Positions 4,588 to 8,739 of a stretch of 45,875 bases of DNA are shown here, piece after piece. Position 1 is the stretch's first letter, and every line of letters begins with the position of its first letter. A program made the position numbers and the translations under genes. Origin of the DNA: Hyphomicrobiales bacterium (GTDB lineage: Bacteria > Pseudomonadota > Alphaproteobacteria > Rhizobiales > JAJFHB01); assembly GCA_021775615.1 (NCBI GenBank), contig JAJFHL010000243.1:1-45875 (forward strand), given 5' to 3'. The notes beneath the pieces are model-generated. The model searched no databases, had not been told where the DNA came from, and was given only the letters and a program-made list of their open reading frames with translations.

Positions 4588-5049
4588 TCAGGCCACCGAC
4601 AGCTCGCTGCGGATCACATAGGCCAGCATCTCGACGATCTGCGCAGGCGTCTCGGCCACCGCGAGCGCCGCGGCATCCACTTCCTTCAGCGGATGGGTCA
4701 GCTCTGCGTCGTGCATGACGATGAGCGGTTTGCCCAGCGCCGACGCGAAGCCGGCATCGAAGGCCGCGTTCCACTGCTTGTACTTGTCGCCGAAGCGCAC
4801 GATCACGATATCGGCGCGCTCGATCAGGGTGCGGGTTCGGATGGCGTTCAGCTTGGCGCCTTTATGGTCTTTCCAGAAGGGTTTTTCTTCCTGACCGAGG
4901 ATGGCGACGCCGCAATCGTCGCTGAACTCATGGTTGGTGACGGGCGCGGCAAAATCGACCGGCAGGCCGGCCGCCCGGGTACCCTGTTCGATCTGTTCGC
5001 GCCAGTCGGTGTGAATTTCTCCTGAGAGATATACAAGCCAGTTGTCCAT
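4588..5049 (-). CDS. ytoQ: YtoQ family protein (nucleoside deoxyribosyltransferase-like)
   Basis: 153 aa, full length for the small YtoQ family. The N-terminus reads WLVYLSGEIHTDWR, with an SGE motif like that of nucleoside 2-deoxyribosyltransferases, followed by RADIVIVRFGDKYKQWNAAFDAG, where the fold's usual D..IVRFG strand and a helix with a conserved acidic residue occur. The family is conserved but its substrate is not established; a nucleotide-sugar or deoxyribosyl-transfer role is only suggested by fold. It is monocistronic, converging on pbpC. Upstream lies a 9-bp inverted repeat (5074-5115) and then the large RNA on the other strand. ATG 5049 gives the family N-terminus. Confidence 0.85.
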   Translation of the reverse strand: MDNWLVYLSGEIHTDWREQIEQGTRAAGLPVDFAAPVTNHEFSDDCGVAILGQEEKPFWKDHKGAKLNAIRTRTLIERADIVIVRFGDKYKQWNAAFDAGFASALGKPLIVMHDAELTHPLKEVDAAALAVAETPAQIVEMLAYVIRSELSVA

Positions 5050-5073
5050 GGGATGCTCCGCGTATTCGCTTGA

Positions 5074-5115
5074 AATCGGGGGTTCACGCCTGTTTTACAC
5101 CAAGCGCCCCCGATT
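5074..5115. repeat. 9-bp inverted repeat upstream of ytoQ
   Basis: AATCGGGGG (5074-5082) and CCCCCGATT (5107-5115) are exact inverted repeats separated by 24 bp. They lie 25-66 bp upstream of the ytoQ start. The repeat could be a ytoQ leader hairpin, an operator, or part of the 5' region of the structured RNA that follows on the plus strand; the sequence alone does not decide. Confidence 0.5.
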
Positions 5116-5168
5116 GCGACATCTCTCTCCCGGCAAATTTCCATCTCGAAAAACTTTCGTCGCACCCC

Positions 5169-5197
5169 TTGATGTTGCAGTGCAGCATATCCATATG
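5169..5197 (+). promoter_or_regulatory. possible promoter of the large structured RNA
   Basis: TTGATG (5169-5174), a 17-bp spacer, and CATATG (5192-5197) form a weak sigma-70-like pair. Transcription would then begin at about 5204, at the base of the first hairpin (CCCCGC, 5204-5209). The -10 match is poor, so the 5' end of the RNA is uncertain by 100 bp or more. Confidence 0.3.
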
Positions 5198-5665
5198 CGC
5201 TACCCCCGCCACGGCGGGGAGACGGCATGGCGTCTTCGGGATAACCGCAGCGATGCGGCCAAAGGTGGGAACTCCTACGCACCACCGCCAGAGATGGTCC
5301 GCCCATGCAAGCCCAGATCTGTAAGCTTCGTTTCCGCGGAGCTATGCTGGACATCCGGGCATCGGTCCGCGCCAAGCGGATAAGGCCTCCCGACGCGATG
5401 AGCGGGGAGGGCATAAGCGGCCGCAACCGCACCGATGCATGCAAACCGGATCAGAGCCGAGATCCAAGGGTGGTCGGCAGGTTCGAGGTGGACAGCCAAG
5501 GGCGGCCGGCAGCATGAAGGGTTGTGGGACGGGCAGTACCCAGGTACAGCGCCGTCACATGGTCCTGAAAGGCTCCCGAGTAGTGTCAGCGAAAGGGATG
5601 CGACGTGTTGTATTGGCATGCCCAAAAGGCATGGCAGCAACTGGGACAGCGCGTTGTGGTAGGTT

Positions 5666-5740
5666 TGCGAAGTAGCTCAGTGGAAGAGCGTGTGAATGCC
5701 AATCACAGGGTCGCCGGTTCAACTCCGGCTTTCGTGCCCA
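5666..5740 (+). tRNA. tRNA-like cloverleaf, anticodon GCC (Gly), encoded CCA, atypical acceptor
   Basis: The sequence forms every arm. Acceptor TGCGAAG (5666-5672) pairs with TTTCGTG (5730-5736); D-stem GCTC/GAGC with GG in the loop; anticodon stem TGTGA/TCACA with loop ATGCCAA, putting GCC at 5698-5700 after T33; T-stem GCCGG/CCGGC with loop TTCAACT; then C73 and CCA (5738-5740). Conserved T8, A14, GG, T33, TTC and A58 are present. The acceptor stem is odd: pairs 1-72, 2-71 and 7-66 are G-U wobbles and the discriminator is C. Bacterial tRNA-Gly normally has G1-C72, C2-G71 and U73, so charging by the normal glycyl-tRNA synthetase looks doubtful. The cloverleaf sits on a 12-bp helix of the surrounding RNA, so it is probably a domain of that RNA rather than a free tRNA gene. 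It could also be a decayed tRNA. Confidence 0.72.
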
Positions 5741-6015
5741 AAAACGCAAAGACTGTCCCGGTTGTATGGACGAAAAATGTCTAAGCCTCGGGCCTTCGGG
5801 CAACCGAGGTGCTTGAACGGCCGCAAGCCGCTTGAGCATTGGTAGGAAAACGATCGTTTGGCGTAGCCGTCATTAACTGCCCGCGAGGCAGACGGGAGCG
5901 GAACTGCCGAGGACATGCAGCGACGGGTGACAAGCCACACCCCAAAAAAGGCGACATTGGACTTCTACCTGAGACTTCAGGTGGATGATACGGGAACCCA
6001 TAATCCGCGAAGGAA

Positions 6016-6101
6016 GTTCACCAGGAGGGCTGTAGTCTCAGGCCCTCTTTATTTTTCTGCCGTCTCCAGATCCACTGCCTTTGTCACGATCAGTTTAGAC
6101 C
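6016..6101 (+). repeat. left copy of repeat flanking the ArsR/SRPBCC/GST cassette
   Basis: This stretch, which contains the RNA terminator, matches 7591-7681 in the same orientation. Shared blocks include TGTAGTCTCA, GCCCTCT, an AT-rich tract, CTGCCG, CTC-AGATC and, more weakly, a trailing part ending in GACCG. The first 50-60 bp align clearly and identity then falls. The match is too long and ordered to be chance similarity of two terminators. Confidence 0.6.
6023..6056 (+). terminator. intrinsic terminator of the large structured RNA
   Basis: AGGAGGGC (6023-6030) pairs with GCCCTCTT (6042-6049), including one G-U pair, around an 11-nt loop. The U-rich tail TTTATTTTT overlaps the distal stem bases and ends at 6056. 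It fixes the 3' end and plus-strand orientation of the RNA. A related copy of this segment occurs at 7591-7650. Confidence 0.8.
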
Positions 6102-6583
6102 GTGCTCCCATCCGGCCCACTGAACGCTCCGACCAGTTTGCGCAGGGCGCCGGACCATCCGAACGTCGCAAGCTCGGCATATGCGCTGTGCAGTTCCGCA
6201 TGGGTCACGACGACTTCGGTCTGTGAACCGCGCGCCAGAAAGTCCACAGTCACAATGGACGGTTCCAGTTGCGGCTCGACACCATCGGGCAGGTTCGCGT
6301 TGCAGTGCTCGGTAAACTCCATCACCAGGCGATCCGGGCGCACGATTTCACGGTAGAAACCGGCGGTTGAACTCACGGTGCCGTCCGATGCCGTCATCTC
6401 GAAGACGAACCGCCCTCCTTCTCTCAGGTCCAGCTCGCGAACTCGGGCGGTGAACCCTTCCGGCCCCCACCACGCTTCGATCAGTTTGGGCATGACCCAT
6501 GCGTCGAACACCTCGCCCGGCGAAGCGTCGATCGTGTGGCGGGCCTCCACGGACCGCACGTTAAGCGCTTCGGCAATGCTCAT
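6095..6583 (-). CDS. SRPBCC/AHSA1-type domain protein
   Basis: 162 aa from ATG 6583, which has a strong Shine-Dalgarno (GGGAGGAAG) and overlaps the stop of the upstream ArsR gene as ATGA; a longer frame to 6661 would run into arsR and is rejected. The protein has the START-like AHSA1 signature: DASPGEVFDAWV, then WWGPEGF at residues 38-44, RF.FEM, and a C-terminal helix with GWSGALRKLV. This fold binds hydrophobic ligands in a cavity; no catalytic residues are implied. ArsR plus AHSA1 pairs are common, and the AHSA1 protein is thought to bind or process the regulator's inducer. It is translationally coupled to the regulator. Its ligand is unknown. Confidence 0.88.
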   Translation of the reverse strand: MSIAEALNVRSVEARHTIDASPGEVFDAWVMPKLIEAWWGPEGFTARVRELDLREGGRFVFEMTASDGTVSSTAGFYREIVRPDRLVMEFTEHCNANLPDGVEPQLEPSIVTVDFLARGSQTEVVVTHAELHSAYAELATFGWSGALRKLVGAFSGPDGSTV

Positions 6584-7681: not shown

Positions 7682-7918
7682 GGACTTCGCGTCTACTGGC
7701 GAGGCACGGCTCCCGCCGTGGACTTGCCGTCCACAAGGTGGCCGTAACGCAGTCCAGAAGGCGCGAAATCCCGGCCTTCGGTGGGCCAAATCGGTCCTCC
7801 AGTCACGTTGCGGCGCTTGCCCGATGCATCACATCGCGCTGCGCACCGCGCCTTACCGGACGAACCGATTTGGCGCCATCAAACGTTTCCGTATGAACAT
7901 GAAACGCTCAAGTAGCGC
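7639..7918 (-). ncRNA. candidate branched structured RNA or fold-back element downstream of lexA
   Basis: Arms of about 43 bp (7639-7680 and 7876-7918) are imperfect inverted repeats. Inside are a 12-bp stem (7680-7691 with 7762-7773) enclosing a GTGGAC/GTCCAC hairpin (7718-7734), and an exact 11-bp stem (7785-7795 with 7864-7874). Together they make a three-way junction. Most of the mismatches are C opposite A as written on the plus strand, which become G-U wobbles on the minus strand, so the fold is much better as minus-strand RNA. Its end lies 22 bp beyond the lexA stop, so it may be the lexA 3' untranslated region. It may equally be a dispersed MITE-like repeat. I see no reading frame in 7579-7940. 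Confidence 0.6.
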
Positions 7919-7940: not shown

Positions 7941-8645
7941 TCAGTAGCGGCGGATCAACCCGACAAGCCGGCCTTGAACCTGGACCCGGTCCGGTCCGAA
8001 GATGCGGGTCTCGTAAGCCGGGTTGGCCGCCTCGAGCGCGATCGACGCGCCCTTGCGGCGCAGCCTCTTCAAGGTCGCTTCCTCGTCATCGACAAGGGCG
8101 ACTATGATCTCGCCGCTATTGGCGTTGTCCGCCTTCTGGATAACCACCGTATCGCCATCCAAAATGCCGGCATCGATCATCGAATCGCCGGTCACCTCGA
8201 GGGCAAAATGTTCGCCCGACGACAACAGTTCCGGTGGAACGGAGACATTGTGCGTGTGGTCCTGAATGGCCGAGATCGGTACGCCGGCGGCAATCCGGCC
8301 CATGACGGGTATTGTGGCGTTGGGCGCTTGGCCGTCGTCGGTCTCGGGCTTCGGACGCACCTTGCCCAAATTGCCCTCGATGACACTGGGATGGAAGCCC
8401 CGGGCAGGTGACGCAAGGCCAGGCGCCACGGAATCGGGCAGGCGCACGATCTCCAGGGCCCGGGCGCGATGCGGCAGGCGGCGCACGAAGCCGCGTTCTT
8501 CAAGTGCGGTGATGAGACGGTGGATGCCGGATTTGGAGCGCAGGTCCAGCGCCTCCTTCATTTCTTCGAACGAAGGGGGAACACCGGTCTCCTTGAGACG
8601 CTCGTGAATGAACATCAGAAGATCATATTGTTTACGCGTGAGCAT
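7941..8645 (-). CDS. lexA: LexA repressor, SOS regulator
   Basis: 234 aa, normal for alphaproteobacterial LexA. The N-terminal winged helix covers residues 1-65 ([17 protein letters not shown], then [17 protein letters not shown]). A linker follows, then the S24 autoprotease domain with cleavage site A120-G121, nucleophile Ser155 in GDSMIDAG and Lys193 in TLKRL, so self-cleavage should be intact. It represses DNA-damage genes until RecA filaments trigger cleavage. Its own promoter carries a perfect alphaproteobacterial box GTTC-N7-GTTC and a second near-match, showing autoregulation. It lies last in the minus-strand run after moeA, but with a 122-bp gap and its own promoter. Confidence 0.97.
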
Positions 8646-8694: not shown

Positions 8695-8739
8695 GAACAA
8701 ACTAGAAACATCTATACATGTTCTAGTTATGTTCGGCAA
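8695..8739 (-). promoter_or_regulatory. lexA promoter with two SOS boxes
   Basis: Read on the minus strand, -35 TTGCCG (8734-8739), 17 bp, -10 TATAGA (8711-8716). A perfect GAAC-N7-GAAC box (8720-8734) fills the spacer. A second box, GTTT-N7-GTTC with one mismatch (8695-8709), lies just downstream of the -10. LexA bound at either would block RNA polymerase. Confidence 0.85.

Follow-up and report, generated by a model that had tools for sequence, protein, structure and literature searches.

A chromosomal GOLLD RNA in a genus of Hyphomicrobiales, with a tRNA-like fold in its linker and a candidate PhaR operator at its promoter

GOLLD is a giant cage-forming RNA, in many cases longer than 800 nt, that has been studied mostly in phages. 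One member, env-38, was seen by cryo-EM as a 14-mer cage with the linkers inside (PDB 9MEE; PMC12286853), tRNAs in the GOLLD linker have already been described (PMC12286853), and ribosomes have been mentioned in GOLLD pull-downs (Kretsch et al.). A chromosomal GOLLD with an internal pseudo-tRNA is known from mycobacteria (PMC6582537). ROOL is another giant phage RNA that forms cages and is often found near tRNA islands (PMC12286853). In Sinorhizobium meliloti, the small RNA MmgR is repressed by PhaR (PMC12542648).

The DNA analysed here (the window, 45,875 nt) is one contig of a 6.26-Mb Hyphomicrobiales genome. The RNA that it encodes resembles GOLLD as described (RF02032; PMC12286853) in having a conserved 3′ domain that covers the whole model, a weaker 5′ domain, a length of about 850 nt and a variable linker at the same place, in which a tRNA is found here as in some other members. 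It differs in lying in a core chromosomal region and not in a phage, a prophage or a tRNA array, and in having a host-type promoter with a PhaR motif. The mycobacterial GOLLD is likewise chromosomal with a degenerate tRNA inside, but it is part of a cluster of 32 tRNA genes gained by horizontal transfer, whereas the present one is solitary among core genes. The nearest named relatives are the GOLLDs of the Caulobacter phiCbK-group phages and of Mesorhizobium phage Cp1R7A-A1, each scoring 165-193 bits against RF02032. They too have a tRNA embedded at this position of the linker, with 68-69% identity around it, but lie in phage genomes with adjoining tRNA or tmRNA genes. No Rfam match to ROOL was found in the window, even at E values up to 1. 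MmgR is also a non-coding RNA with a PhaR site in its promoter, but it is a different RNA, and shared regulation is deduced here from the motif alone.

Identity, fold and ends of the RNA

The main features of the locus were located as follows.

5204-6057, plus strand: full-length GOLLD RNA, its start inferred from the promoter and its end from the T-run
5204-5577, plus strand: GOLLD 5′ domain, 88.4% identical to the sibling copy, with a three-sequence consensus fold
5600-6046, plus strand: GOLLD 3′ domain, which RF02032 models (cmscan)
5638-5649, plus strand: 5′ strand of the linker helix, pairing with 5753-5764
5666-5740, plus strand: tRNA-like domain (ARAGORN, Rfam tRNA, arm covariation, acceptor analysis)
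Parts of this domain, plus strand: acceptor 5666-5672/5730-5736; D arm 5675-5689; anticodon arm 5691-5707 (GCC); T arm 5713-5729; C73 5737; CCA 5738-5740
5753-5764, plus strand: 3′ strand of the linker helix, pairing with 5638-5649
6026-6056, plus strand: 3′-terminal GOLLD hairpin (6026-6031/6043-6048) followed by a T-run, a likely intrinsic terminator read from the sequence

The cmscan result showed that 5600-6046 on the plus strand matches the Rfam family GOLLD (RF02032) over model positions 1-416 of 416, with an E value of 9e-44 and a score of 162.1 bits, only 12 bits above the gathering cut-off of 150 bits. The copy in a sibling species (Hyphomicrobiales bacterium OFTM302, JAJFHM010000160.1) scored 166.9 bits, posterior probabilities were high across the full-length match in the window and the sibling alike, and 14 control genomes gave no match. 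These results demonstrate that the segment is a GOLLD RNA, that is, a member of a known family and a real RNA gene candidate, not a new class. The original prediction had left open whether it was a distant chromosomal relative of such giant RNAs or a new class, and had named beforehand an Rfam search whose hit to a known family would remove the novelty. That search, run over 5000-6200 at E values up to 1, returned GOLLD and tRNA only, and no ROOL, tmRNA, RNase P RNA or group I or II intron. The first alternative is borne out by the RF02032 match and the chromosomal setting, and the second is refuted because the match lies above the cut-off. A new giant RNA class that merely resembles GOLLD might be argued from the narrow margin over the cut-off and from the blastn relatives, which are tRNA-bearing phages only, at 65-82% identity and partly via the tRNA; the full-length match in both species, its absence from all 14 controls and the scores of the phage relatives to the same model reduce the probability of such a class to practically nil.

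GOLLD-type architecture is present, with about 850 nt in total (both ends being inferred) and an additional, less conserved 5′ domain. The boundaries originally proposed for the whole RNA, 5200-6057, were about right. The 5′ domain is also partly conserved in phage GOLLDs. Its consensus fold for the window, the sibling and the Mesorhizobium phage was 7.7 SD better than those of column shuffles, and 26 of its 103 pairs were altered on both sides, a figure that is indicative since it comes from three sequences only. The plus-strand fold of the segment had a z score of -4.1 against dinucleotide shuffles, none of 20 being as good, compared with -1.9 for the minus strand. Open reading frames in the segment are all short with coding-poor codon composition, and a protein-coding origin was dismissed for this reason. 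The segment had indeed been described as structured and without a credible gene.

In RF02032 the tRNA aligns to an unconserved linker stretch of the model. An alignment of 51 distinct linkers (the window, the sibling, three phages and 46 viral contigs) showed that the proposed 12-bp helix of 5638-5649 with 5753-5764 is present and covarying: 98.2% of its cells were paired, and five of the ten pairs that could be tested, out of twelve, were altered on both sides. In the same 51 linkers the D, anticodon and T arms were 98-99.6% paired. The linker helix and these three arms had a covariation score of 0.578; shuffling lowered it to 0.161 and sliding to 0.09 or less. These data demonstrate structural constraint on the linker and its tRNA-like fold. 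The helix is the conserved linker helix of GOLLD. The 5-bp inner helix proposed at 5651-5655/5743-5747 can form in the window and the sibling, but it is not conserved; in the alignment 44.7% of its cells were paired, with no covariation, the same as in shuffles.

The terminator expected at 6023-6056 is real in having a G+C stem and a T-run, and it is the same element as the conserved last hairpin of GOLLD. Its loop of 11 nt is longer than a consensus terminator scan permits, and it coincides with the 3′-terminal hairpin of RF02032, which has a GUAaUCUCA loop in the Rfam alignment.

The tRNA-like domain and permuted tRNAs in GOLLD linkers

A complete tRNA cloverleaf within the helix had been predicted, and it was found both by ARAGORN (tRNA-Gly GCC, 5666-5740) and by the Rfam tRNA model (53.2 bits). 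The proposed tRNA mounted on a long helix does exist; its novelty is not upheld, as linker tRNAs have already been described and the helix is GOLLD's own. In the window the acceptor can form seven pairs, of which three are wobbles (U1-G72, G2-U71 and G7-U66), followed by C73 and an encoded CCA. The sibling element has U1/U72, lacks CCA and carries the anticodon ACC instead of GCC. Identity between the two species is 78.7% in the tRNA stretch versus 88-94% around it, and the fold is kept despite this faster divergence.

Acceptor pairing was then compared between linker tRNAs and free tRNAs of the same loci. Among 46 linkers with an automatically placed cloverleaf, acceptor pairs 1, 2 and 3 were formed in 50, 39 and 57%, where random letters give an expectation of 37.5%, and pairs 4-7 in 87-96%, figures lowered by four linkers in which the T arm was placed one base off. 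A CCA followed the acceptor in two of the 46, one of them the window. Free tRNAs (n = 508) were 93-98% paired at all seven acceptor positions, and 494 of them had CCA. The linker element is more convincingly explained as a structural domain resembling a tRNA than as a tRNA gene, because the linker tRNAs of the clade mostly lack acceptor pairs 1-3 and CCA while free tRNAs have both; the window copy, with its seven possible pairs and its CCA, might by itself still be functional. The pattern fits selection for a tethered cloverleaf and not for a charged tRNA. Loss of the acceptor end across a phage clade looks new; it is in line with the mycobacterial pseudo-tRNA report and extends it to a clade. 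The related GOLLD linkers of viral contigs L208 and L217 contain no tRNA, indicating that the module is not essential in general and is optional in phages.

The linker tRNAs of the phiCbK-group phages and Cp1R7A-A1 differ from that of the window in their anticodons (Lys CTT, Gly TCC and Leu CAG), in having three or four contiguous acceptor pairs and in lacking CCA. In the phage records L048, L049 and L050 they carry the annotation of an ordinary tRNA (tRNA-Lys, tRNA-Gly or tRNA-Leu), with no annotation of the GOLLD around them. ARAGORN also reported a permuted tmRNA in the phiCbK-group phages L048 and L049 (594-1033, minus strand), about 500 nt upstream of the GOLLD 3′ domain and on the opposite strand, which is missing from the annotation.

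Two further phage linkers were found to contain circularly permuted tRNAs, one in viral contig L215 (7607-7713, plus strand) and one in L250 (about 4755-4865, plus strand), the latter also present with identical sequence on the minus strand of L257. In these linkers the tRNA begins with the T arm, followed by the acceptor 3′ strand with A-CCA, and after a loop of 8-9 nt come the acceptor 5′ strand, the D arm and the anticodon arm, so that the tRNA joins GOLLD via the variable loop and the full acceptor is kept. When the halves were rejoined, ARAGORN read tRNAs with perfect acceptors of seven pairs, one with the anticodon GAT and the other with CTT. When the linker was doubled, no tRNA was reported in L215, where the joined variable loop is too long; shorter variable loops gave a clean tRNA. 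Outside GOLLD linkers no such arrangement was found among all loci fetched, and the sole other candidate was a normal tRNA. Permuted tRNA genes are known in algae and archaea from the literature searched, and none of bacteria or phages was found in that literature, which covered few subscription journals. Within that scope, permuted tRNAs would here be seen for the first time in bacteria or their viruses. Their occurrence in two phage lineages also favours shape-based attachment, with the tRNA covalently held and its acceptor end free.

Chromosomal setting and promoter

Pfam scanning showed that the neighbours of the GOLLD gene are housekeeping genes (alpha-2-macroglobulin, PBP1C, YtoQ-type deoxyribosyltransferase, AHSA1, GST, LexA, MoeA, TrpE, triosephosphate isomerase, CTP synthase, enolase and others). 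No phage genes were found among the neighbours scanned, and a prophage setting was dismissed for this reason; the window contains no other tRNA gene besides the linker element. GOLLDs usually lie in phages or prophages, in many cases close to tRNA genes; that context is absent here, and it does not define the family.

In the sibling species GOLLD lies at the same locus, after PBP1C and ytoQ, and the two GOLLDs are 87-88% identical. The gene was most likely in place before the two species diverged, because both have it at the same locus. The RNA around the tRNA stretch is 88-94% identical between them versus 71-81% for the aligned flanking coding DNA, and compensatory changes were found in the tRNA stems and the linker helix. 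GOLLD was present in 2 of 397 genomes of an order sample, 1 of 385 of a class sample and 1 of 398 of a phylum sample, all of one genus; these Pseudomonadota samples (1,180 in all) overlap, with stricter filters applied. No chromosomal GOLLD was found outside the genus in them, a pattern scan of genome contigs matched only the sibling contig, and no plasmid relatives of the segment were found. Phage origin followed by chromosomal residence is probable as the simplest history, and a solitary, vertically kept chromosomal GOLLD looks new. The sibling copy has an interspersed repeat of about 260 nt inserted between the two GOLLD domains, which may be tolerated at the domain junction or may be a sign of decay.

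Two elements were recognized upstream of the RNA.

5169-5197, plus strand: candidate promoter with TTGATG (5169-5174), a 17-nt spacer and CATATG (5192-5197), read from the sequence
5170-5190, plus strand: candidate PhaR operator TGATGTTGCAGTGCAGCATAT, overlapping the promoter, an exact 21-nt motif match

A strict consensus promoter scan did not list 5169-5197; the stretch TTGATGTTGCAGTGCAGCAT of this candidate promoter is identical in the sibling amid diverged upstream DNA. The sequence TGATGTTGCAGTGCAGCATAT matches exactly the published S. meliloti PhaR motif WNWDDNYGCRNYGCRNHHWNW (PMC12542648). In the sibling the core of the PhaR site is identical, with one mismatch in a flank. The motif was spotted after the promoter had been inspected and is post hoc in this sense; a chance match anywhere in a 40-bp promoter is expected at a few in 10,000, an estimate of our own from base composition alone. 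Both genomes encode PhaR, as judged by the PhaR N-terminal domain (PF07879); the two marks sought for a PhaR regulon member, the regulator itself and an operator motif at the promoter, are present at the level of sequence. The only other PhaR motif in the window (22919) is inside an ORF. Elsewhere in the host genome, PhaR-type motifs were found before a Phasin_2 gene (two, L306 about 1498-1537) and upstream of a gene whose product is a zinc-binding dehydrogenase of 428 aa (L301 1498-1518). These findings tip the balance slightly towards PhaR control of the GOLLD promoter, and a GOLLD promoter with an exact match to the PhaR operator in a PhaR-encoding host looks new. A further PhaR-type motif (L303 1498-1518) has no clear target.

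SOS control was considered and dismissed, since no LexA-type box lies at the promoter; such boxes were found at 4835, inside ytoQ, and at 8720. The latter (8720-8734) has the alphaproteobacterial LexA-box pattern GTTC-N7-GTTC and stands just before lexA (7941-8645, minus strand), as autoregulation predicts.

Proposed role and competing explanations

Our preferred explanation, to which we give a probability of roughly 0.6, is that the locus is a full-length GOLLD of probable phage origin that has become a resident chromosomal gene, is regulated by PhaR, forms cages and carries tRNA mimics in its linkers. Transcription would start from the RNA's own promoter (about 5169-5197) and end at the GOLLD 3′ hairpin; the host regulator PhaR, which senses PHB, would repress it, and PHB accumulation would relieve the repression. 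The RNA would then self-assemble into a homo-oligomeric cage of the GOLLD type with its linkers pointing inside, a step that is likely by analogy with the cage already seen. Each linker would present a cloverleaf tethered to the 5638-5649/5753-5764 helix by its acceptor. The module would be a tRNA mimic and not a tRNA gene, concentrating tRNA elbows and anticodon arms inside the cage, and could serve, in storage or under stress growth, to hold a partner that binds tRNA (the ribosome, a synthetase or a tRNA enzyme). The ribosome is one candidate because of its mention in GOLLD pull-downs. Binding of a partner by the module is the weakest step, and we regard it as rather unlikely.

Two other explanations bear on the role of the module and of the gene. 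The linker tRNA-Gly might be a cargo that is excised from the GOLLD transcript and used in translation, and both the calls by ARAGORN and Rfam and the seven possible acceptor pairs and encoded CCA of the window element speak for it. Bacterial glycyl-tRNA synthetase reads G1-C72, C2-G71 and U73; the window element has U1-G72, C73 and wobbles instead, the sibling has U1/U72, the anticodon ACC and no CCA, and acceptor pairs 1-3 and CCA are lost clade-wide. The host, moreover, already has its own normal tRNA-Gly(GCC), and no separate product was seen for the pseudo-tRNA inside a mycobacterial GOLLD (PMC6582537). Excision for translation is improbable on this evidence.

The gene as a whole might instead be a relic, left after loss of the phage and drifting without function in the genus. 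Confinement to one genus, the repeat inserted in the sibling copy and the diverged tRNA stretch (78.7% identity, with the anticodon changed from GCC to ACC) are what such drift would leave. Drift is opposed by the compensating changes in the tRNA and linker-helix stems between the species, by an RNA that is 88-94% identical versus 71-81% for aligned flanking coding DNA, and by an intact promoter core, motifs and terminator. We consider a relic unlikely and a functional host gene quite likely.

If the preferred explanation of a resident, PhaR-regulated cage RNA is true, an RNA cage would be a host device that displays many tRNA-like modules inside. Its broader meaning, that a phage cage RNA was domesticated by bringing GOLLD into the PhaR (carbon-storage) regulon of the host, with tRNA mimics inside the cage and a linker slot that in phages also takes permuted tRNAs, is put forward tentatively, with the odds against it. 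A copy that stands alone in the chromosome under a predicted host regulator offers a setting free of confounding phage genes, and the clade-wide loss of the acceptor end makes the role of the linker tRNA testable, as a cloverleaf attached for its shape and not for release and charging.

Two minor observations concern the genomes of the genus. The repeat of about 260 nt has terminal inverted repeats and at least 40 copies per genome; the copy that interrupts GOLLD in the sibling lies at L003 2591-2856, and the window has a partial copy close to lexA (7743-7879, minus strand). The host genome also contains five clustered tRNA matches of 31-57 bits (G000:C373:1881-2558), possibly a small array with degenerate tRNAs.
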